DNA of 64,000 nucleotides, taken from positions 124,001 through 188,000 of the forward strand of contig JAIUPL010000002.1 in assembly GCA_020160935.1 (NCBI GenBank). The letters are read 5' to 3'. This document shows positions 16,405-62,719 of the stretch, in pieces (the stretch's first letter is position 1; each line of letters begins with the position of its first letter). The notes beneath the pieces were generated by a model. It saw only the letters and a list, made by a program, of their open reading frames with translations, had not been told where the DNA came from and searched no databases. The position numbers were made by a program, and so were the translations under genes. The DNA is from Bacteroidota bacterium. GTDB taxonomy: Bacteria > Bacteroidota > Bacteroidia > Chitinophagales > Saprospiraceae.

Positions 16405-16612
16405 TTCCCGCAGAGTAATTTCCCGTAGAGTAATTTCCCGCAGATTTCCGCAGAATACACGCAGATTTCCGCAGATCGTAGAGCACACTAAGACATTGAT
16501 TAATAACAACTTGCGTACTCTACGATCTGCGGAAATCTGCGTGTATTCTGCGGAAATCTGCGGGAAATTACTCTACGGGAAACTACTCTACAAGGAAACT
16601 ACTCTGCGGGAA
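16405..16612. repeat. Long intergenic stem-loop, TTTCCGCAGA-type arms
   Basis: Left arm 16405-16483, loop 16484-16517, right arm 16518-16612. The inner 60 or so base pairs are perfect, built of repeated words such as CGCAGATTTC and TAGAGTAATTTCCCG. The right arm carries one extra unit. The apex stem is CGTAGAG/CTCTACG, shared with the other stem-loops. It fills the space between the SET gene stop and the xseB start. Confidence 0.9.
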
Positions 16613-16627
16613 GAAAATTCAGCGTCC

Positions 16628-17014
16628 TCACTTTTCGAACCACACTTTGCTCTGGTTATCCACATCGCCGTTGTAGTTGATCAGAATTTCCGAACCGGCA
16701 GGAATATCTTTTATGCAATAAAAATCGATGGTGCGCGCCTCGAAATCCATTCCGTACTCTGCATTGGGCTGGTAGGAATGGTTATACAAAGACCCATAGC
16801 CCAGACACAGCGCATACCACTCGCCTTCTTCTCCCCAGTCGAAGTAGTAGTCGTCGAGCACCGTCTGGCGCACATGCGGCAGTTGTTCTTTGGGAAACAA
16901 CAAAATAGGGCATACCTCGATGACCTCTCCCGCTTCGATGTCGCGGGCGGCAAATACGCCCTGGCCATGCAGGTCGGAAGGGGCAACGAAGATGGAGGCT
17001 TGTTGAAGACTCAT
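16628..17014 (-). CDS. SET domain-containing protein-lysine methyltransferase-like protein
   Basis: 128 aa, the minimal SET domain. Motifs in order: GQGVFAARDIEAGEVIEVCP (SET-N), YALCLGYGSLYNHSYQPNAE with the NHSxxPN core that binds S-adenosylmethionine, and AGSEILINYNGD with the catalytic-region Tyr. Short bacterial SET proteins of this form methylate lysines in unknown targets. It lacks the pre-SET and post-SET cysteines of eukaryotic forms. Upstream lies an arm of heptamer repeats, downstream a long hairpin. Target unknown. Confidence 0.85.
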   Translation of the reverse strand: MSLQQASIFVAPSDLHGQGVFAARDIEAGEVIEVCPILLFPKEQLPHVRQTVLDDYYFDWGEEGEWYALCLGYGSLYNHSYQPNAEYGMDFEARTIDFYCIKDIPAGSEILINYNGDVDNQSKVWFEK

Positions 17015-17019
17015 GGATA

Positions 17020-17056
17020 GAGAGTGAGAGGGTGAGAGGGTGAGAGATGTGAGAGT
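17020..17056. repeat. GTGAGAG heptamer arm, 5' flank of the four-helix gene
   Basis: About five copies of GTGAGAG/GTGAGAT-type heptamers. The complementary CTCTCAC array stands at 17481-17547 on the other side of the four-helix-bundle gene, so the two arms could pair around that gene. Confidence 0.85.
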
Positions 17057-17415
17057 TATGGGGAGAGGGATGATTTGATTTTGGAGGTGACTTTGAGAAT
17101 TTCCAGTGATTCATTGGCCAGCCACGAAATTTCATGTTTGTCGCCATAGCCGGCAGCATCGAACAAATCGAGCCAGTACATTATCTCGTCTGCCTCTTCC
17201 ACTACGATGCAAATTTTTGCAAATTTTTCATTTTTTGAACGTCCCCTACAAAAGGCCCTGAAATTAGCCCCTACGGAAGTAGCCGATTTGCACAATTGGT
17301 GGCACAATGTTCTGGTTGCCTGATTGTAAGGTATATGGCTCAGGAATTTTATTGTCCTGACAGCCAATATTCGGGTTCTATCCCTAAATTTTTCATTGAA
17401 TTCTGTGTTTGTCAT
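17056..17415 (-). CDS. Four-helix bundle (S23 / IVS-like) protein
   Basis: 119 aa, typical length. FNEKFRDRTRILAVRTIKFL, RTLCHQLCKSATSVGANFRA, FAKICIVVEEADEIMYWLDL and LANESLEILKVTSKIKSS give the four helices; SATSVGANFRAFCRGRSKNE is the signature of the family first seen in 23S rRNA intervening sequences. These proteins form pentamers and are often found in genomic repeats or near retroelements; their role is unsettled. Here the gene lies in the loop of an inverted GTGAGAG repeat, and its stop is at the edge of the left arm. Confidence 0.9.
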   Translation of the reverse strand: MTNTEFNEKFRDRTRILAVRTIKFLSHIPYNQATRTLCHQLCKSATSVGANFRAFCRGRSKNEKFAKICIVVEEADEIMYWLDLFDAAGYGDKHEISWLANESLEILKVTSKIKSSLSP

Positions 17416-17480
17416 AATGAAGCCTTTATTAAATTAAAAAAACGCACGAATACAAAGCGCTTCGTGCCGCGCTTATAAAT

Positions 17481-17547
17481 TCACTCTCTCACTCTCTCAC
17501 TCTCTCACTCTCTCACTCTCTCACTCTCTCACTCTCTCACTCTCTCT
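17481..17547. repeat. CTCTCAC heptamer array
   Basis: Nine nearly perfect tandem copies of CTCTCAC. The array runs into the stop codon (TAG) of the TPM protein at 17546-17548. It is complementary to the arm at 17020-17056. Confidence 0.9.
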
Positions 17548-18385
17548 ACCAGTCCCCTCCCGCGCCGCCGCCGCCAAAACTTCCTCCTCCAAAACTGCCG
17601 CCATCGCTGCCTCCGCCCCAGCCACCACTGCTGCCTCCGCCGAAGCCGCCGCCACCGCCGCCGATCCACCAGCCGCCACCCCAGGGGTCATTGTCGCGAC
17701 GATTACGGGCTCGTTTGCCATCTTTGGTATAGGCGGTACCCATGCCTTTTTTTACCCTGTAAAATACAAACACAATAAGAGAGATCAGGCACAGCAACAC
17801 GATCAGGACAATCCAGCCCGCGCCGTCGCCGCCCTGGGCCTGGTCGTTGGTAAATTCGCCACCCAGTGCCCGAATGATATCATCTATGCCGGCATTGATA
17901 CCTTGATAGTATTGTTGTTGCCGGAAGTAGGGGCCCATGGTATTTCGGATGATATTGCCCGCGGTGATATCGGGGATAGCGCCTTCGGTACCGTATCCGG
18001 TGGCAATAAAAATGCCGCGATCGGGTGGCTGCGATTTGATGAGCACCACCACACCATTGTTTTTGTCCTTGCGGCCGATACCCCAGCGGTTGCCCAGTTC
18101 GAAGGCATAAGACGCCTTGTCGTAGTCGCCCAGGTCGGGGCGAATCATCACCACGATCTGGGTACTGGTGGAGTCGTAGTAGCGGCGCAGTCTTTCTTCC
18201 AGGGTAGCCTTTTCGCCGCTGCCGAGCCAGCCGGAGTAGTCGTGTACATACACCGCAGGTTCGGGTTTGGGCGGAATAGGATCGTCGCTGCTTTGCGCCT
18301 GCAACAGTGTCATCGACAGCAACAAGGCCAGCACCGGGAGTACCGCGATGCGGAAAAGGCGCCTGGAAAGGTTTTCAGTCGCCAT
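17546..18385 (-). CDS. TPM domain membrane protein with Gly-rich tail (YgcG-like)
   Basis: 279 aa from ATG 18385, which overlaps the stop of the upstream TPM gene by 11 bp; upstream in-frame ATGs would lie deeper inside that gene. Signal peptide (RIAVLPVLALLLSMTLLQAQ), TPM domain about residues 40-175 (VYVHDYSGWLGSGEKATLEE, TQIVVMIRPDLGDY, GIGRKDKNNGVVVLI, IATGYGTEGAIPD), one transmembrane helix (GWIVLIVLLCLISLIVFVFY) and a long Gly/Trp/Ser tail. TPM proteins occur with LemA, as here. Members act at the membrane, some in photosystem II repair; the role in this bacterium is unknown. Confidence 0.88.
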   Translation of the reverse strand: MATENLSRRLFRIAVLPVLALLLSMTLLQAQSSDDPIPPKPEPAVYVHDYSGWLGSGEKATLEERLRRYYDSTSTQIVVMIRPDLGDYDKASYAFELGNRWGIGRKDKNNGVVVLIKSQPPDRGIFIATGYGTEGAIPDITAGNIIRNTMGPYFRQQQYYQGINAGIDDIIRALGGEFTNDQAQGGDGAGWIVLIVLLCLISLIVFVFYRVKKGMGTAYTKDGKRARNRRDNDPWGGGWWIGGGGGGFGGGSSGGWGGGSDGGSFGGGSFGGGGAGGDW

Positions 18386-18806: not shown

Positions 18807-18811
18807 CTTTT

Positions 18812-19043
18812 ATAGAGCGTGAGAGAAGTGAGAGGGTGAGAAAGTGAGAGATGTGAGAGGGTGAGAGCGTGAGAGATGTGAGAGGGTGAGAGATGTGAGA
18901 GGGTGAGAGATGTGAGAGGGTGAGAGTTGACCACTTCGCTCAATGCAATAAGCAAAGCGGTCAACTCTACAAACTCTCACGCTCTCACATCTCTCACGCT
19001 CTCACCATCTCACGCTCTCACGCTCTCACATCTCTCACCCTCT
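18812..19043. repeat. Long intergenic stem-loop, GTGAGAG arms
   Basis: Left arm of about 16 heptamers (18812-18925), a 15-bp core (GTTGACCACTTCGCT at 18926-18940 against AGCAAAGCGGTCAAC at 18951-18965) with two mismatches, and right arm of CTCTCAC-type heptamers to 19043. It spans from the lemA stop to the start of the downstream TPM gene, inside what should be one operon. Confidence 0.9.
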
Positions 19044-19045
19044 AT

Positions 19046-20512: not shown

Positions 20513-20565
20513 GATAGAGAAAGCCGGATTGCATTTTTTCAGTACAATCCGGACACAAAAGAAGC

Positions 20566-22950: not shown

Positions 22951-22953
22951 TGC

Positions 22954-23176
22954 AACACGGATTGCGCGGATTGGAACACGGATTGCGCGGATTTAAGACG
23001 GATTTTTTGGGGTGTGGAAATTGGGAAAAACTATAGACCTTCGCAGGAGTTTTTGATGCTTATCAGCCTTAAAAATACCATTCACCATTTCTTAAAATCC
23101 TTACAGACAAGTCCGAATCTACCCTACCCACAAACGCTATCCGTGTAGATCCGTTCCTTATCTGTGCGATCCGTGT
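22954..23176. repeat. Imperfect intergenic inverted repeat, ACACGGATTGCGCGGATT words
   Basis: Left arm 22954-23003 with two copies of ACACGGATTGCGCGGATT; right arm 23136-23176 with GATCCG/ATCCGTGT words in the opposite sense, ending at the start codon of the DUF937-OmpA gene. About 130 bp of unremarkable sequence lie between. The same words recur at 61342-61479. Confidence 0.6.
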
Positions 23177-23177
23177 T

Positions 23178-24395
23178 ATGAACTTTCTCGACTCTTTTAA
23201 ACACTACCTCAGCCCTGATCTGATTCGGCAGGCTGCTTCCCTGCTCGAAGAAACGCCCGAGGGTACAGCCAAAGCGGCAAGCAGCCTGCTGCCGACCATT
23301 CTGAGTGGTTTGCTGCAAAAAACGGGTGATTCCCATGCCCTGGACAGTATTTTCCAACAAATTTCAAGTTTCGACGCGGGTATTCTCGACGACCTGGCCG
23401 GACTGATCGGGAGTGGCAACCTGGCCCACAACGACCCTAAAGATGCTTCGGGACACCTGATGGGCTTGCTGTTCGGCTCCAAAGTGCCGGCGCTGACAAA
23501 TGCTGTAGCCGCCTTCTCCGGCGTAAAATCATCTTCGGCTTCTTCCTTGCTTGGCCTGGTAGGCCCGCTGGTGATGGGCGTTTTGAGCAAAAAAATCGGG
23601 AGCGACACCCTGAGCGCTGCCGGGCTGGCCAACTTGTTGTCTGATGAAAAAAATACCATTTTCGGCGCACTGCCAGGTGGCATTGCTTCCTTGCTGGGAT
23701 TGGTAAATCCGGCTGCTGCAACTGCGTCTGCCGGCAATTCTGACGACGACCCCGGTACTGCCACCGGTACCCAATGGCTGTGGCCCCTGTTGCTGCTGCT
23801 GGTTCTGGGCGGCGGTATTATCTATTATCTGAAAAACTGTGCTCAACCGGCGCGGCCTATGCCTGTCGAAACGCCTGTGGTAGACTCTACTGCTATCAAG
23901 GCAGCCGAAAAAGCAGATGCCGCGCAAGCCGCCGCACAGTTGTACATGAAAAAACTCGCTTCGGGTTTTGAAATCAAGGGCAATCAAAATGGTATTGAAA
24001 ATCAATTGATTGCGTTTATTGAAGACGCCAATCGCCCCATTGATAAAACGACCTGGTTCAATTTCGACCGCCTGACTTTTAATACCGGCAGCGCTGTGAT
24101 CGATATGAACAAATCGCGCGAGCAACTGACCAATATCTACGAAATCCTGAAAGCATTTCCGAAGGTAAAACTCAAGGTCGGCGGCTATACCGATAATGTA
24201 GGCAAAGAAGCCGACAATATGAAACTCTCTACTGACCGCGCCAAAGCCACCGTCGCCGCCCTCGAAGGTATGGGTATCGAAAAAGGCCGCCTGACGCCCG
24301 AAGGCTACGGCCCCCAACATCCCGTTGCCAGCAACGACACGGAAGAAGGTCGGGCACAGAACCGGCGGATTGCGGTTAGAGTAACACAAAAATGA
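23178..24395 (+). CDS. DUF937 and OmpA domain membrane protein
   Basis: 405 aa. N-terminal DUF937 (about 1-180): FLDSFKHYLSPDLIRQAASL, SSLLPTILSGLLQKT, LLGLVGPLVMGVLSKK, DEKNTIFGALPGGIASLLGL. One transmembrane helix at about 196-215 (WLWPLLLLLVLGGGIIYYL). C-terminal OmpA/MotB domain: WFNFDRLTFNTGSAVIDMNK, LKVGGYTDNVGKEADNMKLS, TPEGYGPQHPVASNDTEEGR, AQNRRIAVRV, with the Asp and Arg that bind meso-diaminopimelate peptidoglycan. So it anchors an inner-membrane protein to the wall. The stop TGA is the first TGA of the following heptamer array. Confidence 0.9.
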   Translation: MNFLDSFKHYLSPDLIRQAASLLEETPEGTAKAASSLLPTILSGLLQKTGDSHALDSIFQQISSFDAGILDDLAGLIGSGNLAHNDPKDASGHLMGLLFGSKVPALTNAVAAFSGVKSSSASSLLGLVGPLVMGVLSKKIGSDTLSAAGLANLLSDEKNTIFGALPGGIASLLGLVNPAAATASAGNSDDDPGTATGTQWLWPLLLLLVLGGGIIYYLKNCAQPARPMPVETPVVDSTAIKAAEKADAAQAAAQLYMKKLASGFEIKGNQNGIENQLIAFIEDANRPIDKTTWFNFDRLTFNTGSAVIDMNKSREQLTNIYEILKAFPKVKLKVGGYTDNVGKEADNMKLSTDRAKATVAALEGMGIEKGRLTPEGYGPQHPVASNDTEEGRAQNRRIAVRVTQK

Positions 24396-24596
24396 GAGCG
24401 TGAGAGTGGTGAGAGCGTGAGAGCGTGAGAGCGTGAGAGCGTGAGAATGGTGAGAGTCCGTAGAGTGTACCGCTTCGCTCTTGATATTTCATAGGAAAGC
24501 ATGTACTCTGCGGACTCTCGCTCTCTCACCACTCTCACTCTCTCACACTCTCACTCTCTCACACTCTCACACTCTCACGCTCTCACTCACTCTCTC
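24393..24596. repeat. Long intergenic stem-loop, GTGAGAG arms
   Basis: Left arm 24393-24456, core with CCGTAGAGTGTACCGCTTCG at 24458-24477 against a decayed partner TGTACTCTGCGG at about 24502-24513, right arm of CTCTCAC and CTCTCACA words to 24596. It begins with the stop codon of the OmpA gene and ends at the base before the kbl ATG. The genes on both sides read in the same direction. Confidence 0.9.
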
Positions 24597-25793: not shown

Positions 25794-25869
25794 TGGGGTT
25801 CGGCTACGCCGAACAGGGGCTGGGATTTTGCGGATTGAGCGGATTTTATTGATCTTTTACCACGAAGGG

Positions 25870-25970
25870 TTTTACCACGAAGGCCACAAAGGGTTGCACA
25901 AAGTTCACAAAGAATTGAATGTAAGTCCTTTGTGAACTTTGTGCAACCCTTTGTGGCCTTCGTGGTAAAA
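25870..25970. repeat. Perfect 43-bp inverted repeat
   Basis: Left arm 25870-25912, loop 25913-25927, right arm 25928-25970, all 43 pairs matching. Words are ACCACGAAGG, CCACAAAGGG, TTGCACAAAG, TTCACAAAG. Partial further copies (TTTTACCACGAAGGG before, CTCGTGGTAAA after) flank it. It follows kbl. Confidence 0.95.
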
Positions 25971-26134
25971 CTCCTCGTGTTAAAAAAAACTCGTGGTAAA
26001 AAACAACAACCCACCCACGTCCAAAACGGTCATTCAGTCTTCCGAATCCGTCGTTCAGGCATTTTCGCTGCCACCACATCGAAGCGCAGCACTTCCCTGC
26101 AACCATCGGTATTTTGCACAGACTTTAATTCGTG

Positions 26135-26185: not shown

Positions 26186-26902
26186 ATGACGCTCCGCTGT
26201 ATCATTGTGGAAGACGAGCCACTGGCCGCCGAAATACTCGCCGAATACATTGGCCAAACCCCTTTTCTCCAACTCACGCACATTTGCAACGACGCCATTC
26301 AGGCCCTCGATGTGGTGCGCCAGCATCCTGTCGACGTCATATTTCTCGACATCAACCTGCCCAAACTCAGCGGACTGGAATTTCTGAAAACCCTCTTGCA
26401 CCAGCCGCGGGTGATTGTCACCTCCGCATACCACGAATTTGCCGTGCAAGGCTTCGACCTGCATGTGACCGACTACCTGCTCAAACCCATTGAGTTCAGC
26501 CGCTTTTCCAAGGCCGTCAACAAACTCCTGCAACCCCACCGGCAGTCGGATCAGGCATCGGCTGCCAAGAACTCCGTGCCGCCTGTTCGCCCCTACTATT
26601 TCTTTATGGTGAACAAACGCTCGGTAAAAATTTACCTCGATGAAATTCTTTTTATCGAAAGCCTGAAAGACTCGGTGAGCATCGTCACCAAAACAAAAGC
26701 ATACAATACCCACTACCAACTCGGCGAACTGGAAGAACTCATGCGCTCGGATAATTTTCTGCGCATCCACCGCTCTTTCCTGGTGGCTGTGGATAAAATT
26801 GAGTCGTTTTCAGCAGCAGAAGTGGAAATCGCCGGTCGGGTGCTGCCGATTGGGAGAAGCCATAAGTTGTATGTGATGGATCGACTGGGGAGACAGAGTT
26901 AG
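26186..26902 (+). CDS. LytTR family response regulator
   Basis: 238 aa. Receiver domain (1-125): LRCIIVEDEPLAAEILAEYI with the acidic pair, VIFLDINLPKLSGLEF with the phosphorylated Asp near residue 54, VTSAYHEFAVQGF and DYLLKPIEFSRF with the conserved Lys. LytTR DNA-binding domain (about 145-238): FFMVNKRSVKIYLDEILFIE, MRSDNFLRIHRSFLVAVDKI, VLPIGRSHKLYV. ATG 26186 fits the promoter and the standard N-terminus. Bacteroidota LytTR regulators usually pair with a histidine kinase of the LytS/YehU type; none is next to it, so it looks like an orphan. Convergent with the TIR gene. Confidence 0.93.
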   Translation: MTLRCIIVEDEPLAAEILAEYIGQTPFLQLTHICNDAIQALDVVRQHPVDVIFLDINLPKLSGLEFLKTLLHQPRVIVTSAYHEFAVQGFDLHVTDYLLKPIEFSRFSKAVNKLLQPHRQSDQASAAKNSVPPVRPYYFFMVNKRSVKIYLDEILFIESLKDSVSIVTKTKAYNTHYQLGELEELMRSDNFLRIHRSFLVAVDKIESFSAAEVEIAGRVLPIGRSHKLYVMDRLGRQS

Positions 26903-27124
26903 AGGGTGAGAGGGTGAGAGGGTGAGAGAGTGAGAGAACGTAGAGTGTACCGCTTTGCCCACACATATTCTATGAGCAAAGCGGTACACTCTACGTTCTC
27001 TCACTCTCTCACCCTCTCACTCTCTCACCCTCTCACTCTCTCACCCTCTCACCCTCTCACTCTCTCACCCTCTCACCCTCTCACTCTCTCACCCTCTCAC
27101 TCTCTCACCCTCTCACATCTCTCG
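26903..27124. repeat. Asymmetric long stem-loop, GTGAGAG / CTCTCAC arms
   Basis: Left arm 26903-26938 (five heptamers), perfect 20-bp core 26939-26958 against 26976-26995 (CGTAGAGTGTACCGCTTTGC), right arm 26996-27124 (about eighteen heptamers, alternating CTCTCACT and CTCTCACC). It lies between two convergent genes. The stop codon of the TIR gene (27113-27115) lies within the right arm. Confidence 0.95.
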
Positions 27125-28158: not shown

Positions 28159-28232
28159 CGGGTCATAGCTCAGTTGGTTAGAGCGCCACGTTGACATCGT
28201 GGAGGTCACAGGTTCGAATCCCGTTGATCCGA
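28159..28232 (+). tRNA. tRNA-Val (GAC)
   Basis: 74 nt. Acceptor CGGGTCA pairs with TGATCCG (one G-T), D arm GCTC/GAGC, anticodon stem CCACG/CGTGG with loop TTGACAT (anticodon GAC, codons GUC and GUU), T arm with TTCGAAT and one A-C mismatch, discriminator A. CCA is not encoded. Confidence 0.93.
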
Positions 28233-28241
28233 CGAGAAAAT

Positions 28242-28376
28242 AGAGGGTGAGAGATGTGAGAGCGTGAGAGATGTGAGAGTTCGTAGAGTGTACCGCTCTG
28301 CTAAAAAATTCAATGAGCGGAGTGGTACACTCTACGAACTCTCACATCTCTCACGCTCTCACATCTCTCACCCTCT
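28242..28376. repeat. 61-bp stem-loop between two tRNA genes, GTGAGAG arms
   Basis: Left arm 28242-28302, loop 28303-28315, right arm 28316-28376; 59 of 61 pairs match and the two exceptions are G-T. The order of variant heptamers (GTGAGAG, ATGTGAGAG, CGTGAGAG) is mirrored exactly. The apex core is TCGTAGAGTGTACCGCTC. It starts 9 bp after tRNA-Val and ends 5 bp before tRNA-Pro. Confidence 0.97.
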
Positions 28377-28381
28377 AAAAA

Positions 28382-28455
28382 CGGGACGTAGCTCAGCCCG
28401 GTAGAGTACACGTCTGGGGGGCGTGTGGTCGCAGGTTCGAATCCTGTCGTCCCGA
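28382..28455 (+). tRNA. tRNA-Pro (GGG)
   Basis: 74 nt. Acceptor CGGGACG/CGTCCCG is perfect; D arm GCTC/GAGT; anticodon stem CACGT/GCGTG with loop CTGGGGG (anticodon GGG, codons CCC and CCU); T arm GCAGG/CCTGT with TTCGAAT; discriminator A. CCA is not encoded. Confidence 0.93.
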
Positions 28456-28464
28456 CTGAGTATT

Positions 28465-38707: not shown

Positions 38708-40070
38708 AGAGCAATTGAAAAAGCAGGCCGAGGGGCATGAAACGCCTGTCGATACCGAGGCGCTGTGGTCCAGGGTACAAACCCGCAAACGGCGGCGTTT
38801 CGTGCTGTTCTTCTGGTGGCTGCTGGGAGCGGCCGGGCTCATGGGCGGCGCCTACTGGATAGCAGCACGTAGTCAGCAGCCTTCCGCCGTATCCACTTCG
38901 CAAGAGGAAATTCAGCAGATTGCCCGTACCAATGTTAACGCTCCCGACTCATCTTCCGTCTCTATCAACGAAACCGCACCCGTATCGAACCCAACCCTGA
39001 ATGTCCCGAAAACCACTTCCCCAAAAACTGCCGGCGCCATTCGAACATCGCAACATAAAAATACGCCATCACTGGCAGGCACTTCTCCCAAAACGGTGAT
39101 CCCGAAGGATTTACCGAGCCACCTCATTACAGATGCCGCCCCCTCATCTCCTCAACCTCTCAACCCCTCAACCCCTCAACCCCTCATCTCCTCAACCCCT
39201 CAACCTCTCAACCCCTCAACCTCTCAACCCTTCTCAACCCCACCGCCCCCCGGAAACGAGGCTATTCCTCTGCTACCGACGTATATACGCTTGTTGCAGT
39301 CTCCTGCAGCAGACGAATTCGTATTGCCGGAATCTTTTATCAGCCCCTACGCTCCTTTGTTCGCAGTGCCAGCCAAATCCGGTTATCAAGTGGGTATTCA
39401 GTCCGGCATATCTTACTGGAATGTATTCCATCCATCAGGGCCCGATGCCGTTTTCCCGCGTGCCAATGAACGCCTGCTGGAAGCCGTTCATGCAGGAGCC
39501 TTTTTTCAAAAACAAATGGGGCGCCGACTGATCATTCGGGCTGGTTTGCAGTATCAGCGCTACAATGCGGTGTTCCGCTGGCAGGAAAGTTCCATCTTGG
39601 CAAACCAGCCCCGGCAAGTGCACAATTATCATAGCGACGGGCATGTAGACACCACGTATATCCCCAGTGGCACGCTCGTGGAAAAAACGAGGACGGTGCG
39701 GCAGTACAATTACGTTTCATCATGGATGCTGCCTGTCGACTTCAAATGGCGCATCCCGGCGGGCCGCACCACACTGATGCCATTTCTGGGCGTGCAGGCA
39801 GGTTTTCAATCCCAATCGGGTGCATTGCTGAATGCCAATGGCCAGCCGGATTTTAGCCGATACAAGAGCATTTACAAAACCCTGTTTAACCTGGGCCTGC
39901 GCACAGGCATCTCCACCGAATGGCGGATCAATGAACGCAACCACCTGCTGATAGAACCCTGGGGTTCGGTCGATTTGCGCTCGCGCACCGGCAGGTTCAA
40001 TCCCGCGTATGAGCAGTTCTGGCAGGCCGGAGTGAGTGTGGGAGTGGTGAGAATGATGAGTTATGAATGA
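38688..40070 (+). CDS. Membrane protein, putative anti-sigma partner with barrel-like C-terminus
   Basis: 460 aa. The N-terminal 35 residues are cytoplasmic (MNWQEFEEQLKKQAEGHETP), then a transmembrane helix (FVLFFWWLLGAAGLMGGAYW), as in anti-sigma factors encoded after ECF sigma genes. A long Ser/Thr/Pro linker (about 60-200) includes PQPLNPSTPQPLISSTPQPL. The C-terminal 260 residues look like an outer-membrane beta-barrel domain: GYQVGIQSGISYWNVF, LIIRAGLQYQRYNAVF, MPFLGVQAGFQSQSG, FNLGLRTGISTEW. A direct link from sigma factor to an outer-membrane domain is implied (inference). Confidence 0.75.
   Translation: MNWQEFEEQLKKQAEGHETPVDTEALWSRVQTRKRRRFVLFFWWLLGAAGLMGGAYWIAARSQQPSAVSTSQEEIQQIARTNVNAPDSSSVSINETAPVSNPTLNVPKTTSPKTAGAIRTSQHKNTPSLAGTSPKTVIPKDLPSHLITDAAPSSPQPLNPSTPQPLISSTPQPLNPSTSQPFSTPPPPGNEAIPLLPTYIRLLQSPAADEFVLPESFISPYAPLFAVPAKSGYQVGIQSGISYWNVFHPSGPDAVFPRANERLLEAVHAGAFFQKQMGRRLIIRAGLQYQRYNAVFRWQESSILANQPRQVHNYHSDGHVDTTYIPSGTLVEKTRTVRQYNYVSSWMLPVDFKWRIPAGRTTLMPFLGVQAGFQSQSGALLNANGQPDFSRYKSIYKTLFNLGLRTGISTEWRINERNHLLIEPWGSVDLRSRTGRFNPAYEQFWQAGVSVGVVRMMSYE
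39147..39246. repeat. CCTCAACC microrepeat inside the anti-sigma-like gene
   Basis: About twelve tandem octamers (CCTCAACC, CTCAACCT, with two CTCATCTC variants) encode the PQPLNPST repeats of the linker. The style is that of the intergenic arms, but no mirrored arm was seen. Confidence 0.85.
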
Positions 40071-42318: not shown

Positions 42319-45300
42319 ATGAAAAAAACACTCCATTCATCGATATCAACTTGTTGGTCCGGCCTGCTTGTTTGCTTTTTGTTGTTAGCCGGGTATGCGC
42401 GACTGTTTGCACAATGCAATCCCGACATCGTTGCGCCTGTCATCACCTGCCCGGCGAATCAATCGGTGTTGACATCGCCCGGGCAGTGCAGCCAAATCGT
42501 GGCGCTTGAAGCCCCGGTGGCAGTGGACAATTGTGGTGCGGTGTCGGTGCAAAACACTTTACCTGTCGGAAATGAGTTTCCGACCGGTACTACTGTTGTG
42601 TTGTACACCGCCACCGACCTGGCTGGCAATATGGCTACTTGCCAAACGACCGTCAAAGTAAGCGGCAGCATTCCGCGCCCGGTATGCGACCGCTGGGTGA
42701 CCGTGCCTGTCGACCCATCGGGCACGACGACCATTTACCCGGAAGACATCCTGGAATATGGCCCGTACACTTGTACGCAAACGGGTTTATCGCTTGAATA
42801 CGACTTTACCAACCCGCCGCTGCCTTCCCTTTCCTTTACCGGTACCGGCACCCATGAAGTGTATGGAGCGGTCATCACCGAGGACGGTTTTTGGGAAAAA
42901 TGCTGGTCGTTCGTCAGTATTGTGGGCGCCGGCGCCGAGTCGTGTACACCCGATGTGACGCCGCCCCAGGTTCAATGCCGACCATACTACATTGTTTATG
43001 CGGATAATGCGCAATGTCAGGCAGTTATTAATCTGGAAAGCCCGGTTGTTACGGATAACTGCGGGCTGTTCACGCTGTTTTCCGATGCTCCACCCGGCAA
43101 CCTTTTTTCTCAGGGGCCGGATAGAATTGTCACATATACGGCAACCGATATTGCTGGCAACAGCAGCACCTGTACGTCGACTATTCGTTTCAGTTACCAG
43201 GAAATTATTCTTCCTGTTTGCCATCCGCTCACGGTTGATCTGAATTCGTCCGGAACGGCGATTGTTACCCCGAATGATGTGCTGGCAGAGGGCCCCTACT
43301 CCTGTACAACGCCGGGTATTTCGCTGGAAATTAATATTAATGCCGAACAATTGCCCTTTTTGACCCTGACGCAGCCCGGAACGTACTTTGCCCAGGTGTA
43401 CATCACCAATTACATTGGCATCATACACGGTTGTCAGTCTGTTATCACAGTAAATCCACTCCCCGGTGGGTGTAATCCCGAAACAACGCCCCCGCTTGCC
43501 CATTGCACGGCTTCCTTAACTGTCGAAACCAATACCCAGGGGCCCGGCCTCGCCCGTATGTATGCCGCCGATCTCAACGATGCCAGTACCGACAACTGCA
43601 CAGCGCCGCAGGACCTGCACTTGCGCGTCACCACAGAAGATGGCACTGTTCCGCCCACGGCTGCTTACGCGGATGTGTCCGGAATCGTCCAAAACCTTCC
43701 GGTATTTTTGTGGGTTGGCGACCAGTCGGGCAACTGGAGTCGATGTAGCGTACCGGTAACAACCACCCCGGCACAATGTACTCCCGACACCATGCCGCCG
43801 CTTGTGACGGCGCCGCCGAATCTGACGTTTACTTACACGGCTTTTGCTGCCCTCAACATAGATTTTGACAACCTGCCGGACGAGTTTCCTGAAATTTATG
43901 CTGCATTTGGTACGGCTACGCACTGGGACAACTGCGATGACGGGAACAGCGATTTGCAAGAGTCGTTTGTAATTTATCCGGATAAAATTATCCGCCGATT
44001 TTTTGCAACGGATGCCGCCAACAACCTGAATGACAATCAATTTCAAACAATTACCATTCTGGATGGCTTTACAGCCCATTTGCCAGGCTGGACAACACCC
44101 GGAATGACGCCTGCCGACCTGGAACTGCAAGGTGTAAATGTCGTCAGTTCGGTATCGGACGAGATTTTTGTAAATCCTTGCAATACCGCGCCGGTCAAAA
44201 TCCTGCGCACCTGGGTAATTGGTGATTTTGAATTCAATCCTCCGCAAGGACTTCCTGTTGTTTTGCCACCGCTCGATACCAACAATGATGGCATTACGGG
44301 CGACCCGTACGACATCATTGTTTTTGGCGACAGCGTTTGGTTGTATGAAAACCATGTGCCTGTGAGGCCTTTGGCTCGACGCGCCTGGTCGTACCAGTAT
44401 GAGCAGACGATTCGTGTCACGTATGGCATCAGCGGTACTGTTTTCATTGATACATCGACTGATTGCGCCTTCGAAAACGGCGAACCTGTGTTAAAAAACT
44501 GGAAGGTAAAAGCCATTGGTCAACCCAGCAATACACCTTACACAGGGCAGACCGACAGCCAGGGACATTATTCCATACAGACGTGTCTGGGCGATACCGC
44601 CGTGGAAATCAGCCTCGATGCGCCTTACAACTATTCCGGCATATGTCCACCCACGTATGTGCTCGACCTCACGCAGGGAGGGCCCTGGGTGCGGGATATT
44701 CCAGTTCAGTTGACAGATGAGTGCAATTTGCTGAATGTCGATATTGCCTCCAACTCCATGAGTCCATGTTTTGCAGGGTATTATGCGGTGAATTATTTCA
44801 ATTTCAGCCAAAACACCATTTCCGGTACACATGTGGATGTAGCGCTCGACCCATATGTTCAGTTTCAGGGCGCTACCTTGACTGGAGTGCCGCAAGGAAA
44901 CAATACCTATCGGTTCCAGACAGGGGCCCTGTCGCCGGGTGCTTCGGGTAGTTTCAAAATATTTTATGTACTCGATTGTGATGCACCGGATGGCGCGACG
45001 CACTGCACGGAAGCCTCCATTTCCCCATATGCCGAGTGTCCGGCGCAAGAAGCGTGGTCGGGCGCAGAATTGCGCGTTACCGGCGCCTGCGACGGCGACT
45101 CGGTGCGCCTGAAAATCACCAACGTGGGCGTAAATCCCATGGCCGGAAAACTGAATTATGTGGTAACCGAAGACCTGATTATGGCACGGCAGGACAATTA
45201 TATACTCGGCCAGGGCGAATATGTAGAAGCCGCTTTCCCTGCCGATGGCACTACGTGGCGCATGGAAACGCCACAGGAGCCTGGCCATCCCTGGGGCGGC

Positions 45301-46121: not shown

Positions 46122-46256
46122 AAGTCCTGAGTCCTAAGTCGTAAGTCCTAAGTCCATAGAGTACACCTGATTACCCTTGGCTTATTAAAAATGAATGCCA
46201 AGGGTAATCAGGTGTACTCTATGGACTTAGGACTTACGACTTAGGACTCAGGACTT
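46122..46256. repeat. Perfect 60-bp stem-loop between convergent genes, AAGTCCT heptamers
   Basis: Left arm 46122-46181, loop 46182-46196, right arm 46197-46256, all 60 pairs matching. The outer half is heptamers (AAGTCCT, GAGTCCT, AAGTCGT), the inner half CATAGAGTACACCTGATTAC and CCTTGGC. It starts 3 bp past the T9SS gene stop; the ABC-F gene stop (46248-46250) lies inside the right arm. Confidence 0.98.
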
Positions 46257-51372: not shown

Positions 51373-51461
51373 TAGAGGTGAGAAGTGTGAGAGAGTGAGA
51401 GCGTGAGAGATGTGAGAGCGTGAGAATGGTGAGAGCGTGAGAGTCCGTAGAGTGTACCGCT
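51373..51461. repeat. Half stem-loop: GTGAGAG arm and left half of the apex core
   Basis: Heptamers from 51373 to about 51444, then CCGTAGAGTGTACCGCTTGT at 51445. The second half of the core and the CTCTCAC arm are missing; unrelated tandem repeats follow. Confidence 0.85.
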
Positions 51462-51484: not shown

Positions 51485-51690
51485 GCCCTGAAAGGGCGTA
51501 TCCAATAGCACAGGGCAACGCCCTGTGTATTCGTATCCCATCCCCCAAAAAACACATATTCACCTCATTCCGGCAACGCCCTGTGTTTTCGTATCCCATT
51601 CCCCCCCAAAAAACACATATTCGCCGCATCCCCGGCAACGCCCTGTGTTTTCATATCCCATTCCCCCCAAAAAACAACCCACCCACCACA
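51485..51690. repeat. Three tandem units of about 60 bp with short palindromes
   Basis: Units start at 51514, 51572 and 51634 (GGCAACGCCCTGTGT, then TTCGTATCCCATTCCCCC and AAAAAACACATATTC). The first is preceded by the hairpins GCCCTGAAAGGGC (51485-51497) and CACAGGGC/GCCCTGTG (51509-51527). The stretch 51691-51861 is A/C-rich with no gene. Confidence 0.85.
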
Positions 51691-53995: not shown

Positions 53996-54028
53996 AACGA
54001 TCTTGTTACAAAATAGCCTTTGTTATTC

Positions 54029-54796
54029 TCACCTCTCACCTCTCACCTCTCTCAACCGCTCCAGTATTTCCTTACTCAGTTCCATATAATCGTGCGCGCC
54101 CGGACTTTTTGGACTGTATTCAAAAATATCCTTGCGTTGTGCGGGGGCTTCGGCCAGCGCCACATTGTCGCGCACGTAAGTTTTAAACACTTTGTCGCCG
54201 AAATACTTGTGGATAGTTTCCACCACATCCCGGTTCAGTACCCGGCGGCTATCGTACATGGTAGCGATTACGCCGGCCATATCGAGTTGTTTGTTGAGGC
54301 GGAATTTCACCTTGTCGATCACCTGCTTGATTTTCGCTAGTCCCTGCACCGCCAGAAATTCCGTTTGCAGTGGAATCAGCACATAACGGCTGCTGGTGAG
54401 AGCATTGAGTGTCAACAATCCCAGCGATGGCGGACAATCGATAAAAATGAAATCGTAGTCGTCTGCCACCTGGCCGATCAGTTCCCGCAGGATAAATTCG
54501 CGCCCTGCTTCATTGATCAGTTCCATTTCGGCGCCCGACAGGTCGAGCGACGAAGTGATAACGTCGAGGCCCGTTCGGTGCGTATACGGACTCAGATCGC
54601 CTTCGCCGCGCAATGCTTCGTAAATGGTGATCTTCTGCCGTGGAATACCCAGCGAAATGGTCAGATTGGCTTGAGGGTCCAGGTCGATCAACAACACCCG
54701 CTTACCCAATTCCACCATAGCGGCGCCTATATTAATAGTGCTGGTCGTTTTGCCGACCCCGCCTTTGTGGTTCAAAAGAGAAACTACTATGCCCAT
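54029..54796 (-). CDS. ParA family ATPase
   Basis: 255 aa from ATG 54796 (MGIVVSLLNHKGGVGKTTST); another ATG lies two codons upstream. Deviant Walker A LNHKGGVGKTTSTINIG with both lysines, VLLIDLDPQANLTISLGI (A'), FIFIDCPPSLGLLTLNAL (Walker B), and PLQTEFLAVQGLAKI. The C-terminus has MYDSRRVLNRDVVETIHKYF, usual for Soj-type proteins. It drives partition of DNA or cargo by ATP-dependent DNA binding. The partner is the protein at 53510, not a ParB with nuclease-like fold. Confidence 0.93.
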   Translation of the reverse strand: MGIVVSLLNHKGGVGKTTSTINIGAAMVELGKRVLLIDLDPQANLTISLGIPRQKITIYEALRGEGDLSPYTHRTGLDVITSSLDLSGAEMELINEAGREFILRELIGQVADDYDFIFIDCPPSLGLLTLNALTSSRYVLIPLQTEFLAVQGLAKIKQVIDKVKFRLNKQLDMAGVIATMYDSRRVLNRDVVETIHKYFGDKVFKTYVRDNVALAEAPAQRKDIFEYSPKSPGAHDYMELSKEILERLREVRGER

Positions 54797-54848: not shown

Positions 54849-55005
54849 TAGGGTTGATAAAGTTGATGAGGTTGATAAAGTTGATGAGGGTTGATAAAGG
54901 TTGATGAGGGTTGATATTTTGCCACTCGATGAATGCATATTAGCCCCTTACCCCGAGCCGATGAATATCAACCCTCATCAACCTCATCAACCTTTATCAA
55001 CCCTA
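54849..55005. repeat. Asymmetric intergenic inverted repeat, GTTGATRAR words
   Basis: Left arm 54849-54918, nonamers GTTGATAAA and GTTGATGAG in alternation; loop 54919-54963; right arm 54964-55005, complementary and shorter. The inner GATGAGGGTTGATATT pairs perfectly. It lies upstream of parA and of the S24 repressor gene (divergent gap). Confidence 0.9.
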
Positions 55006-58448: not shown

Positions 58449-58664
58449 CAAGGGGCAAGAGGCAAGGGGCAAGAGGCAAAGGGCAAAAGTGCAAGAGGCA
58501 AAGGGCAAGAGGCAAAGGGCAAGAGGCAAAGAGCAAGAGACAAAGGGCAAAAGGCAAAGGGCAAAAGGCGAATTTTGGAAGAACCGAGCCTTTGCCTCTT
58601 GCCCTTTGCCTCTTGCCCTTTGCCTCTTGCCCTTTGCCCCTTGCCTCTTGCCCCTTGCCCCTTG
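58449..58664. repeat. Long stem-loop between convergent genes, AGAGGCA/AAGGGCA heptamers
   Basis: Left arm 58449-58569 (about seventeen heptamers), loop 58570-58586, right arm 58587-58664 (eleven heptamers). It fills the gap between the TonB receptor stop and the stop of the ACS/GNAT gene (58666-58668). Confidence 0.95.
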
Positions 58665-58665
58665 A

Positions 58666-61335
58666 TCAAATCACTTTCTCCGCCACATCAAACTCTTCCT
58701 CCGTGCTTTTGATCACAAAACCCTTGCGCTGGAACAGCCGCCGCATGTCGCCGTTGATTTTTAGGAAAGAGCCGTACACCATACGGTAGCCCTGTTCTTT
58801 GGCGATGTCGAGGATATAATCGGTGAGGATGCTGCCCAGGCCATGGCCCTGCCATGCATCGGTGATGAGAATGGCGTATTCGGCTGTTTCGCGCCAGCCA
58901 TCGCCGACGATGCGCACCACACCAATGAGTTCTTTCTGGCCTTTTCGTTCGATTTCGGCCACGATGGCTATTTCACGGTCGTAGTCGATGTGGGTAAAAC
59001 GCGTGAGCATCTGGTGGTTGAGGCCGGAGAGGTAGCCGAAAAAACGGAAATAAAGCGATTCGCGCGAGGTGTTCTCCACCAGCCGTGCTTCCAGTGCTTC
59101 GTCTTCAGGCCGGATAGGACGCAGCAATACTTTGGTGCCGTCTCGCAACTGCACTTTTTTGATCCATTGCGTGGGGTAGGGTAAGATGCTGAGGTGGCTA
59201 TATGGCTCGCGCTGGCGACCGGGGTCGCGTTCGAGGGTGACAGCGGCGTCCAGGGCGATACCGCCTTCGGCATTCATGGCAAAGGGGTTGATGTCGATTT
59301 CCCGGATGTCGGGGAAATCCATGACGAGGTAGGCAAAGCGGCAGAGAATGTGCTCCAGATACTCCATCGGGACAGCGGGCACATGCCGGTAGCCTTGCAG
59401 AAGGCGACTGATACGCGTACCTTCTACCAAATGCCTGGCAAGTGCACGATTGAGTGGAGGCAGGGCGATCGCACGATCCTGCCAGATTTCCGTAGCAGCG
59501 CCTCCGAGGCCGAACACCACCACAGGTCCAAAAACGGCGTCTTTGACCGTGCCGATGAGCAGTTCGTGCTGTACATCCCACATTTTTTCTACTAAAACAC
59601 CCATAATGCGCGCATCTGGGCGTTTTTTCTGCACATTTTCCAACAGCGAGTGGTAGGCGCGCCGCACATCGGCTTCCGATTCCAGTCCAAGCCGTACGCC
59701 ATTCACATCCGATTTGTGCCAGATGTCGGGCGATTCGATTTTCATAACGACAGGCAGACCTATACTCAGGGCGTGGGCAACGGCCTCATCTTCGGTACGC
59801 GCCAGTTTGCCGATGTTGACCGGTATGCCGTAGCATTGGAGCAACTGCATGGATTCGCTTTCACTGAGTTCCGTGCGGCCTTTTTTGCGCAATTGTTCGA
59901 CAATACCCCGCGCTTTTTCGCGCTGAAAACCTAGTTCGAGCGGCATATCGGGCGGCGTTTCGTACAACAATTCCAGTGTATCGTGGTAGTTGACCATTTT
60001 CATAAACACCTCAACGGCCCGTTCGGGGAACGGATACCAGGGTATTTTTTCCGATTCCAGCAATCGGCGGCCGGGGCCCATGCTGTGCAGACCCATCCAG
60101 GCTGCATACACAGGTTTGCTTTTTACCTTTTTCGATTCCTCCACAACTACCTGGGCAAACTCGGTGGGATCGGTCATGTTTTGTGCCGTCAGGATACACA
60201 AAACGGCATCCACGCCGGTATCGTGCAGGCAGGTTTTGAGGGCCGCGCGGTAGCGTTCGGGGTTAGCGTCGCCCAGCACATCCACCGGATTGGAGCGGCT
60301 CCAGGCCGGTGGCATGATGGTATCGAGGGCACTGAGTGCTGTGGGCTGCAGGGTAGCCAGTACGCCGTCGCGTTGGGCCAGCCAGTCGGTGGCCAGAATG
60401 GCCGGGCCGCCAGCATTGGTGACAATGGCGAGGCGGTTGGAGGCAGGTAGAGGCTGCATGGAAAGCGCCTGTGCACAATCGAACAATTGTTGCACCGTAG
60501 CCGCCCGGATAACTCCTGCACGATGGAAGGCTGCATCAAACACGGCATCGTTGCCAGCCATGCTGCCCGTATGTGAAAAAGTAGCGCGCGCGCCATCCTT
60601 GCTGCGGCCGGCTTTGAGGATCACGATGGGTTTGGAGCGGGCGAAGGCCCGGGCGGCCGACATAAACTTGCGGGCATTCACCAGGCTTTCCATATAAATC
60701 AGGATGCAGGCCGTACGATTATCGGAGCCGAAATAATCGATCAGGTGGTCGAAACCGATGTCGGCCATGCCGCCGATGGATACAAAATGGCTGAAACCTA
60801 CATTTTTTTCTGCTGCCCAGTCCAGGATGGCGCTGCCCATCGCCGCACTTTGGGATATGAATGCCACCCGGCCGTGGGCGGGCATGGCAGGTGCATAGGT
60901 GGCATTGAGGCCCAGGGACGGCGTGAGCAGACCAAGGCAGTTGGGGCCGATGAGCCGGATGCCATGTTCTTTTGCCTGCGCTTTCAGGTCGCGAAAGAGC
61001 GCTTCGCCTGTTTCGCCGGCTTCTTTAAAACCAGCAGAAAGTACCAGCACGGATACGATGCCTTTTTTTCCGCATTCTTTCATCAGGGCAGGCACAATAG
61101 GCGCCGGCGTGACGATGATGGTGAGGTCGGGCACTTTGGGCAATTTGCTTACACTGGGGTAGCATTTCAGCCCGTTCAGGGTTTGGTATTTCGGATTGAC
61201 CGGAAAAATATCCCCTTTAAAACCTGCAGACAGCAGGTTTTGCAATACGGCATGCCCGATTTTTTCGGGCTTTTCAGTAGCGCCGATCAGGGCAACCGAT
61301 TGGGGACGGAAGAAATGATCGAGGATTTTTTTCAT
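58666..61335 (-). CDS. Pat-like lysine acetyltransferase: ADP-forming acyl-CoA synthetase fused to GNAT
   Basis: 889 aa. CoA-binding domain (1-120: FFRPQSVALIGATEKPEKIG, IFPVNPKYQTLNGLKCYPSV), succinyl-CoA-synthetase-like parts with FISQSAAMGSAILDWAAEKN and RATFSHTGSMAGNDAVFDAA (His of the phosphate-carrying type), ATP-grasp domain at about 480-690 (YGIPVNIGKLARTEDEAVAH, VVMKIESPDIWHKSDVNGVR), and a C-terminal GNAT domain (about 720-889: VLLRPIRPEDEALEARLVEN, YAILITDAWQGHGLGSILTD). This is the layout of Pat/PatZ enzymes that acetylate lysines in acetyl-CoA synthetase and other proteins. The histone-deacetylase-family gene next to it supports that reading. Confidence 0.9.
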   Translation of the reverse strand: MKKILDHFFRPQSVALIGATEKPEKIGHAVLQNLLSAGFKGDIFPVNPKYQTLNGLKCYPSVSKLPKVPDLTIIVTPAPIVPALMKECGKKGIVSVLVLSAGFKEAGETGEALFRDLKAQAKEHGIRLIGPNCLGLLTPSLGLNATYAPAMPAHGRVAFISQSAAMGSAILDWAAEKNVGFSHFVSIGGMADIGFDHLIDYFGSDNRTACILIYMESLVNARKFMSAARAFARSKPIVILKAGRSKDGARATFSHTGSMAGNDAVFDAAFHRAGVIRAATVQQLFDCAQALSMQPLPASNRLAIVTNAGGPAILATDWLAQRDGVLATLQPTALSALDTIMPPAWSRSNPVDVLGDANPERYRAALKTCLHDTGVDAVLCILTAQNMTDPTEFAQVVVEESKKVKSKPVYAAWMGLHSMGPGRRLLESEKIPWYPFPERAVEVFMKMVNYHDTLELLYETPPDMPLELGFQREKARGIVEQLRKKGRTELSESESMQLLQCYGIPVNIGKLARTEDEAVAHALSIGLPVVMKIESPDIWHKSDVNGVRLGLESEADVRRAYHSLLENVQKKRPDARIMGVLVEKMWDVQHELLIGTVKDAVFGPVVVFGLGGAATEIWQDRAIALPPLNRALARHLVEGTRISRLLQGYRHVPAVPMEYLEHILCRFAYLVMDFPDIREIDINPFAMNAEGGIALDAAVTLERDPGRQREPYSHLSILPYPTQWIKKVQLRDGTKVLLRPIRPEDEALEARLVENTSRESLYFRFFGYLSGLNHQMLTRFTHIDYDREIAIVAEIERKGQKELIGVVRIVGDGWRETAEYAILITDAWQGHGLGSILTDYILDIAKEQGYRMVYGSFLKINGDMRRLFQRKGFVIKSTEEEFDVAEKVI

Positions 61336-61341
61336 TGGAAC

Positions 61342-61479
61342 GCGGATTACGCAGATTTAGGACACGGATTACACAGATTGAAACACGGATTGCGCGGATT
61401 GAAACACGGATTACACGGATTTTTCTTTGACTGAAAACCAATCTGCGTAAATCCGTTTCCTCCGTGCAATCCGTGTTTC
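61342..61479. repeat. Intergenic inverted repeat, ACACGGATT words
   Basis: Left arm 61342-61421, four to five copies of a ACACGGATTRCRCGGATT-like unit; right arm 61440-61479 in the opposite sense. Pairing is best in GAAACACGGATTGC at the outer end. The right arm contains the stop codon of the deacetylase gene. Confidence 0.85.
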
Positions 61480-62440
61480 AAAACCTCCAGTACTTGTTCA
61501 AATACGATGCGGCCAGGTGCAAATGCAATTCGTATGTTTCCCAGATACGCATACCCGAAGAAGTGCCGGCTTCGTGATGCGGCATAGGCTCGCCATTTAT
61601 GCCGGCGATAAAATTGTGCACCAGTTTGGGCAGTTCTTCCGTATCGTAGCCGCCTTCGAGCACGCCGAACAGTTTGTCGCGGAAGGTTTGGGCCAGCAGT
61701 TTACCAACTTTGTAGTAAAAGTGGCCGGATGCGCGCAATTGCAGCAAGGGATCGAACTGGTGTGCATCGAAACCGGCAGAAATGGCAACTACATCGGGAT
61801 TGAAGTGCTCTGCTGCGGGCAACATATACTCGACGGAATGGAGTAGAATATCGTCGCCACTGCCTGCCGGAAGTGGCACATTAAAGGTAAATCCTTTGCC
61901 TTTGCCGGCGCCGATTTCGTGGGCAGCGCCATTGCCGGGATACGCCGGATATTGATGCATCGACCAGTACAGTACCTGATCGGAGTTGTAAAAAATGTCC
62001 ATAGTGCCATCGCCAAGATGTCCGTCGAAATCCAGGATCAGCACTTTTTTGCCTTTGCTGGCAGCCAGTTGGGCGGCTACCGCTACGTTGTTGAACAGGC
62101 AAAAGCCGTGCGATTCTTCGGCAAAAGCATGGTGGCCGGGAGGCCGCACCAGCGCAAAATCGCCGCGCTCCATCGCCATGATGGTTGCGCCGACGGCACA
62201 GGTGGCGGCTTTGAAACTCCCGGGACATACGACGGTATCGCCGTCGAGGTCGAGGCTGTTCTGGCAGTGCGTACGCACCATTTCAATATATGAACGTGGG
62301 TGCACCAGATCGAGGTAGGCTTCGCCATCAAGCAAAAGTGGTTCGGCCGGCAGTTCACCAAATGCCAGCAGGCGCTTTCGGTTTTCCGGGTGCGTACCAT
62401 TATCATGGTCGAGAAAAACAGGGTGGGAAATTATTTTCAT
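61478..62440 (-). CDS. Histone deacetylase family protein (AcuC-like)
   Basis: 320 aa from ATG 62440 (MKIISHPVFLDHDNGTHPEN). Zinc-dependent deacetylase signature: LVRPPGHHAFAEESHGFCLF with the catalytic His pair, VLILDFDGHLGDGTMDIFYN with the zinc-binding Asp and His, AISAGFDAHQFDPL with the third ligand Asp, and VLEGGYDTEELP with the transition-state Tyr. The second His of the usual DxHHG is Leu here. It lies directly upstream of the Pat-like gene, so the two should reverse each other on the same targets, as AcuA/AcuC do. Confidence 0.92.
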   Translation of the reverse strand: MKIISHPVFLDHDNGTHPENRKRLLAFGELPAEPLLLDGEAYLDLVHPRSYIEMVRTHCQNSLDLDGDTVVCPGSFKAATCAVGATIMAMERGDFALVRPPGHHAFAEESHGFCLFNNVAVAAQLAASKGKKVLILDFDGHLGDGTMDIFYNSDQVLYWSMHQYPAYPGNGAAHEIGAGKGKGFTFNVPLPAGSGDDILLHSVEYMLPAAEHFNPDVVAISAGFDAHQFDPLLQLRASGHFYYKVGKLLAQTFRDKLFGVLEGGYDTEELPKLVHNFIAGINGEPMPHHEAGTSSGMRIWETYELHLHLAASYLNKYWRF

Positions 62441-62589
62441 ACCGATACTTGTTGCCGACAAAGGTAAATGATCGCAATTATAGCCCGTGTGAAGAAGATC
62501 ATCCTTCAGGGTGATATGCGGCGAATGAACTGGGAAAGGTTTGGGGCTTGCGAAAAGCAGAAATTTTCGAACATTTGCGGCAGGAGGGA

Positions 62590-62719
62590 TGAGTTATGAG
62601 TTATGAGTTATGAGTTATGAGTTATGAGTTATGATGCTGTACTCATGGCTTTGTAAATAGTGTGGCCACAAGCAGCGTGAGTATAACTCATAACTCATAA
62701 CTCATAACTCTATAACTCC
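62590..62719. repeat. Stem-loop in a divergent gap, GAGTTAT heptamers
   Basis: Left arm of six GAGTTAT heptamers (62590-62634), weak core with TGCTGTACTCA, right arm of ATAACTC heptamers (62683-62719). Unlike the others it lies between divergent genes. Confidence 0.92.

Follow-up and report, generated by a model that had tools for sequence, protein, structure and literature searches.

Giant tandem-word hairpins at gene ends in a Saprospiraceae genome: dispersed families whose arms change in concert between species

The 64,000-nt stretch of Saprospiraceae DNA analyzed here (the window, G000:C51:124001-188000) is part of a 5.84 Mb genome, designated G000, and carries giant intergenic hairpins, the two arms of which are mirror-image arrays of short tandem words. 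The hairpins fall into about a dozen families that are scattered through the genome and are built from tandem words particular to each family, and comparison with the closest relative found among 41 other genomes of the genus (G043, about 87% identity in aligned genes, analyzed in part) shows that the two arms of a hairpin change in concert between species. The interpretation that we favor, with somewhat better than even confidence, is one of palindromic interspersed repeats that are tolerated at gene ends, with families that turn over and arms that are kept mirrored by template switching.

Hairpin families and their position at gene ends

Hairpins were detected at +1/-3 scoring with a gap penalty of -5 and a pass score of at least 24, and genes were called with our own hexamer caller, so that gene starts are approximate. 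In 839,252 bp of G000 the detector found 139 hairpins, with stems of 25 to 143 pairs (an earlier, 448-kb subset gave 79), and the same detector returned 70 in G043. Twelve Markov-1 shuffled runs (three each of four contigs, G007 and G009 included) returned none; this control covers the contigs of the 448-kb G000 set, the other 391 kb having been added later. Long mirrored arms at particular places in the window had been reported in an initial annotation, and these were recovered by inverted-repeat search and folding, while its figure of at least fourteen mirrored gaps was reduced to 12 (nine by the detector, three by folds) and a split pair at 17019. Hairpins without a mismatch number 28/139 in G000 and 15/70 in G043 (p 0.86), and with p 0.07 for the mismatch rate there is no clear difference between the two species. 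The 139 G000 hairpins are strongly polar: G outnumbers C in the 5' arm of 105 and is outnumbered by it in 22. Elsewhere in the genus, at least one hairpin was present in 8 of 20 members, each sampled over no more than 20 kb, and two congeners, G007 and G009, are hairpin-poor (8 per 400 kb each), but nonetheless hold a few giant hairpins built of other words.

The words had initially been described as unrelated from locus to locus, but they recur as families in G000, and the same words are found again in G043. We labeled the families A (GTGAGAG), B (AGTCCTRAG), C (CCCGCAGA), D (GAGTTAT), E (GGTTGATGA), F (GTTATCAG...GTTGAGG), G (GTGTTTT), H (ACACGGATT), I (CTTTGTGAA), J (GGCAAGAGG), K (GGATTAGAAGG), L (GCGCCATTTATGGCGC) and M (TTGACAACTTT); hairpins assigned to none of them, i.e., other palindromes, make up 4/79 in G000 and 7/70 in G043. 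The description of the words as mostly 7 bp long is imprecise for the GTGAGAG arrays of family A, where the period is mostly 8 bp or mixed. Copies of a family sit in unrelated flanks. A feature that the initial annotation had not described is a loop-proximal core, GTAGAGTAC, GTAGAGTGT or GTAGAGTTG, which is common to families A, B, C and I, whose tandem words are unrelated. It is present in 43/139 hairpins, with 78 copies in the 24.8 kb of hairpins versus 11 in the remaining 814 kb. The 12-mer GTAGAGTACACC occurs 231 times in G000, 225 in G043, 53 in G016, 41 in G006 and 12 in G047, and no more than seven times in any of the remaining 37 genomes, while a reversed control 12-mer was found once over all 42. 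Species-specific homogenization was nominally detected in four of the seven families tested (A 0, K 25, L 47 and H 37 of 2000 shuffles, uncorrected), and was absent for families B, C and E in the same shuffle test.

Hairpins are concentrated at gene ends. They occupy 48/94 convergent, 75/365 tandem and 12/92 divergent gaps in the 839,252 bp of G000 (convergent versus divergent, Fisher p 2e-8), and none lies inside a called gene. Edges that face a stop codon (n = 174) are a median of 7 bp from it and 47 overlap it, while edges that face a start (n = 102) are a median of 71 bp away and none overlaps; in 24/48 convergent hairpins, each edge either overlaps its stop or lies no more than 15 bp from it. 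Stop codons in all three frames were found in 119/370 arms read inward, compared with 52 read outward and 41 after shuffling (G000 and G043), an excess that derives partly from gene stops lying inside the arms.

Such a preference for gene 3' ends, which peaks between convergent genes, and the very stable folds would suit functional RNAs, acting as bidirectional terminators or 3'-end protectors whose pairing is kept by selection on the transcript. However, the transcript-strand mismatches of 78 tandem-oriented hairpins comprise 62 G-U, 64 A-C and 74 others, and since G-U is not above A-C, the arms do not show the looser pairing that RNA would permit. TTTT follows the stem within 10 nt at 14/174 edges, which is the background level (8.5% of 10-mers), and an Rfam scan of the window gave no match beyond two tRNAs. 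Hairpins are also missing from 46/94 convergent gaps, from 13 of 33 orthologous gaps in G043 (at least in comparable form) and, for the most part, from G007 and G009, with their 8 per 400 kb. With no G-U preference and no T-tract, neither selection on RNA nor an ordinary terminator is a good fit; the terminator role raised in the initial annotation is supported by neither signal, and we regard a functional RNA as unlikely.

Concerted change of the arms and turnover of the gaps

Arms were located by homology to the arm of their family and paired afterwards, so that their selection was independent of pairing. When arms were re-paired at random 2000 times per family, none of the re-pairings matched as well as the true arms for families A, B, C, H and K; two did so for I, nine for L and 1254 for E, while family F, with three pairs only, was left out. 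True arms differ at a mean of 1.18 positions in family B and 3.0 in family K, against 3.38 and 7.9 for re-paired arms. Departures from the consensus arm in 28 family B elements were shared identically by both arms in 45 cases, confined to one arm in 32 and different in the two arms in one. A smaller test with 16 family B elements was weaker (0.065 differences per site within elements, 0.100 between). Among arms found by homology, the reversed order of an arm pair was never observed.

The same behavior is seen between species. At 11 hand-picked, same-family syntenic loci of G000 and G043 (one of which, at 54850, has K inside E in G043), the aligned columns, gapped ones excluded, comprise 361 that are the same, 71 with mirrored differences, 44 with one-sided differences (10 in G000, 34 in G043) and one other. 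Independent change at the one-sided rate predicts 0.17 mirrored columns. Mirrored sites are also clustered, with 23 adjacent pairs against a null mean of 11.2 and a maximum of 21 in 5000 trials. The clearest locus is a K hairpin at C51:352873 (14 mirrored versus 1 one-sided), while a B hairpin at 212054 shows the opposite trend (3 versus 5). Loop inversion could not be demonstrated: of five loci above the shuffle level, the inverted match was the better one at three (an A, a B and the J locus), yet other loops of the family scored equally. For an F hairpin at C51:285933, the loop scores 34 to its ortholog, the maximum among 13 other F loops being 28.

Perfect arms were compared with their other copies by a whole-genome search using four arms, in which 40 of 278 candidate places were scored. 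The nearest other scored copy was 85% identical for an F arm of 92 bp, 93% for a C arm of 73 bp and 85% for a 70-bp arm at 331470, and a perfect K arm had no other copy among the places scored. The 839 kb contain 22 perfect, gapless hairpins, and of the 21 for which another copy exists in the same 839 kb, the nearest is less than identical for 18.

It had been suggested beforehand that orthologous gaps whose words differ while the arms stay mirrored would point to active correction between the arms, and such gaps are present. Both flanks of 33/139 G000 hairpins could be mapped in the part of G043 analyzed, where the gap holds a hairpin of a different family in 12 cases, the same family in 7, none in 13 and a gene in 1. 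In the reverse direction, 23/70 G043 hairpins map in G000, with 11 different, 8 same and 4 none. These classes were scripted with a score limit of 16 and count D versus D2, and D versus an unnamed stem, as different; some of the gaps scored as none (C51:196340, C17:14958, C51:192506, C51:360224) retain the same words or a shorter palindrome. Taken together, the changed-word gaps and the 71 mirrored columns support concerted change of the arms. The correction proposed initially is upheld to that extent (71 mirrored versus 44 one-sided columns). Where words changed, one dispersed family has in large part been replaced by another, and some of this replacement looks nested in G043.

Signs of nesting come from K-type hairpins. 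Words of E, A or F directly border nine of the 19 on the outside (three on both sides) and lie inside none; H words, which are too loosely defined, are omitted from this count. The nine are among the 13 in G043, which suggests that K elements there are nested within older words. Other words were also seen at the end of an ABC-F gene (that at 46122 in the window), compared by eye at 23 loci: other long stems are present in G005, G006, G014, G023 and L040, G021 has a single array, and most of the remaining loci are without a comparable stem. Because the second neighboring gene often differs, this is a comparison of a gene end, and not always of a whole gap.

Template switching as a candidate process, and other explanations

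Template switching between the arms of an inverted repeat is reported to leave homogenized arms, an inverted spacer and multinucleotide changes (PMC8604942, PMC8794818), and work on quasipalindrome correction (PMC8794818, PMC8604942, PMC7202029) describes arms that converge by several neighboring bases per step. Homogenized arms with clustered, mirrored changes, the mark of a quasipalindrome corrected in this way, are found in the present hairpins. Unlike the known cases, there are many copies per genome, stems of 25 to 143 pairs and families that swap at gaps. Mirrored multi-base blocks, indifference to G-U and perfect arms that have no near copy form the footprint expected of template switching, which is a good candidate for the process behind the concerted change; the chances that it rewrites arms in place are, in our estimate, about even.

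In each element, tandem words form the outer array, an inner module (GTAGAGTAC/GTGT/TTG) often follows near the loop, and after a short loop comes the mirror image of these parts. Elements would accumulate where they are least harmful, that is, after stop codons and above all between convergent genes, and a gap would remain occupied while its family changes, partly because new elements land inside older ones. Arm complementarity would be maintained at the DNA level, most likely by folding of the hairpin at the replication fork and copying of one arm from the other, which rewrites several bases at once. Nesting may be a main route of turnover, and the elements would be tolerated rather than functional.

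Several observations weigh against this interpretation. The excess of gaps occupied by different families in the two species is modest (12 versus 6.4, the number that gap occupancy in G000 predicts for 25 gaps, p 0.01), and outer words beside K are seen only in G043, with none at the six K hairpins of G000. Family E shows no arm concert in the re-pairing test, and the F hairpin at C51:285933, the sole one of the 11 loci with a clearly ortholog-like loop, has 3 mirrored versus 2 one-sided differences. Mirrored differences would likewise arise if one copy took the place of another as a whole, and alignments of tandem-word arms can be ambiguous. The perfect-arm search covered only a part of its candidate places, and for 4/22 perfect hairpins (three with an identical copy, one for which none was found) correction cannot be told from recent copying.

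Recent copying is the essence of a second explanation, in which the hairpins are elements like miniature inverted-repeat transposable elements (MITEs) or repetitive extragenic palindromes (REPs), spread by a transposase, and the arms match because the copies are young. It accounts for families that are dispersed in unrelated flanks, for the nominal homogenization of A, K, L and H, and for the words of other families that adjoin K in G043, but perfect arms whose nearest scored copy is 85–93% identical do not fit it well. The inverted repeats of MITEs are present, but the gaps do not align outside the elements, where target duplications and empty sites would show. REPs with RAYT transposases (PMC3733652, PMC2817692) resemble the hairpins as dispersed extragenic palindromes with several families per genome, and are described as 20–40 bp long with an unpaired GTAG or CGTC end (PMC3733652). 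The present hairpins are several times longer, have arms of tandem words and, in families A, B and C, carry GTAG within the stem (by eye); our detector is blind to ordinary REPs. A cognate Y1 gene flanked by the same palindromes, as is typical of REPs, was not found in G000, whose two Y1 transposase genes adjoin other palindromes. G007 and G009 likewise have two such genes each, so that Y1 gene number does not track hairpin density, and the Y1/RAYT transposase was rejected as the mobilizer. An E and an A hairpin lie about 3.4 kb from one of the two Y1_Tnp genes of G000. As a complete account we find the transposase model doubtful, while its spreading part may operate alongside template switching.

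Spread of the families probably needs a separate agent, and none was found. A RhuM protein was considered as mobilizer and discarded, as G043 has a single PF13310 match and G000 none. The family B pattern AGTCCGTAGAGTACAC had no match in viral contigs (a phage collection was not searched), and the 46122 hairpin, representing family B, the only family tried, had none in plasmids. Loss of SbcCD as a cause of hairpin abundance was also rejected. The divergent SbcC/SbcD pair, found in most of the genus members searched, is absent from G000, G024, G046, G052 and probably G018, but hairpin-rich G043 keeps it, and 20-kb samples of the others without the pair held no hairpin (G024, G046 and G018) or one (G052).

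It is very improbable that each locus arose independently, by expansion of a short word through slippage at the gap and mirroring on the spot. Stems of the same architecture but with other words do occur in G005, G006, G007, G009, G014, G023 and L040, but the words of G000 and G043 return again and again as families, and some of these families have cores in common. Slippage with local mirroring may instead be the route by which a new family is born.

Two other kinds of repeat are comparable in part. In Geobacter metallireducens, the sites described in PMC2700814 consist of paired, opposite-strand short tandem words (GTTGCTYN, TCTCCGTS, MTYCTGA) that are likewise multicopy and unrelated to one another. 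They differ in being presented as regulator binding sites of 3 to 5 words at variable distance, and the excerpts cited here mention neither arm concert nor sister species. The TAACTGA heptamers of Beggiatoaceae, cyanobacteria and five Bacteroidetes also form intergenic arrays with a patchy distribution, but the repeats are direct, apart from one inverted case, and most precede start codons (PMC4679880), in contrast to mirrored hairpins that sit where genes end. No prior description of the present hairpins was found in the open-licence literature.

Hairpins of the window and their significance

Along the window, a family C hairpin (16404-16612) lies between two reverse-strand open reading frames (ORFs) and has words CCCGCAGA/GTAGAGTAATTT with GTAGAG near the loop. 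Its 84-nt arms (16403-16598) are 93% complementary, both are 93% identical to a copy at C51:355621, and the hairpin is not present in the orthologous G043 gap. The split pair of family A (17019-17546) consists of GTGAGAG words at 17019-17055 and CTCTCAC words at 17481-17546, and encloses a reverse-strand ORF of 119 aa (17056-17415). In the G043 counterpart (L229 6498-6997, G043:C182), inverted A arrays flank an ORF that is similar in sequence by eye, and its presence between inverted GTGAGAG arrays in both species indicates that a gene can persist stably between arms. Genes are enclosed at two other places. At G043:C202 (L232 4911-6254) a RhuM-family gene lies between GTGAGAG arms, the G000 gap being a plain family A hairpin, and at G000:C17:208450-211150 (L255) inverted family H arms flank an ORF whose sequence appears to resemble a DNA cytosine methyltransferase.

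Family A hairpins with GTGAGAG words follow at 18814-19043, in a gap between reverse-strand ORFs, and at 24393-24596, where the hairpin has a GTAGAGTGTACCGC core and overlaps the stop codon of the upstream forward-strand ORF. The corresponding gaps of G043 hold family K, in the former case with A words adjoining. A weaker family H hairpin at 22951-23177, seen by folding, spans the distance from stop to next start of forward-strand ORFs with ACACGGATT words, and G043 has H words with a short stem. The hairpin at 25855-26007 has CACGAAG/CACAAAG words and 58-nt arms (25855-25985, 95%), and is I-like by eye; a CACGAAG-type hairpin was not found in the orthologous gap of G007. Two further family A hairpins carry the core. 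The first (26888-27123, with 74-nt arms at 26888-27046, 93%) overlaps both stops of convergent genes for a LytTR regulator and a TIR protein (Pfam), and the second (28241-28377, 62-nt arms, 97%) lies between tRNA-Val (28159-28233) and tRNA-Pro (28382-28456). Opposite the latter, G043 also has family A, with 11 mirrored and 5 one-sided differences.

An unmirrored array of CCCCTCAA octamers at 39140-39241 falls either within an ORF or immediately ahead of it, according to how the gene is called, and for the 1266-aa ORF at 42319 no viral relatives were found. The family B hairpin (46122-46256) has AGTCCTRAGTC words and a CATAGAGTACACC core, with 60/60 pairs and a 15-nt loop. It is in a convergent gap and includes the stop codon of the ABC-F gene. 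Among named organisms, the closest matches to this gene are in metagenome-assembled genomes of Saprospiraceae. A forward-strand, one-armed family A array (51374-51460) ends in the GTAGAGTGTACCGC core and shows no mirror partner in the fold, and G043 likewise has a single arm there; the array at 54027-54051 is also without a mirror partner in folds. Nearby, a 61-bp tandem repeat with GGCAACGCCCTGTG (51514-51676) resembles, by eye, a palindrome beside a Y1 transposase at G000:C42 (L247 9583-9677).

A family E hairpin (54850-55004, GGTTGATGA words, by folding) occupies a gap that has a K stem inside E words in G043 and another stem in G047, and is hairpin-free in G016 and G006. The family J hairpin (58449-58664, CAAGAGGCAAAGGG words) lies between convergent genes for a TonB receptor and a CoA ligase, with stops 5 and 1 bp away, and is matched by family J in G043. 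Next, a family H hairpin (61334-61477, by folding) is in a gap for which five species show four word systems: G000 and G016 have H, G006 has CACATAG and G047 has GTGTTTTG. The G043 gap (G043:C295) is unmirrored, with family H words at one side and family A words at the opposite side, and is possibly a broken or half-replaced hairpin. The last hairpin, of family D (62589-62718, GAGTTAT heptamers), has a different stem opposite it in G043.

Long perfect palindromes are usually considered unstable in bacteria, and despite this presumed instability long palindromes are common at gene ends here. Tandem words that are unrelated to one another can be carried by the same short conserved core, and the family at a gap can change while the flanking genes remain about 87% identical. 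As close species share many of these gaps, they provide natural replicates of how inverted repeats stay perfect, whether by selection or by arm copying. A more tentative proposal, to which we give somewhat less than an even chance, is that the mirrored structure and not the sequence is what is inherited at a gene end, with arm copying rewriting hundreds of giant hairpins in place. If this is true, the palindrome outlasts its words, whole word systems being exchanged within a genus, and the hairpins would constitute a natural, genome-wide record of template switching.

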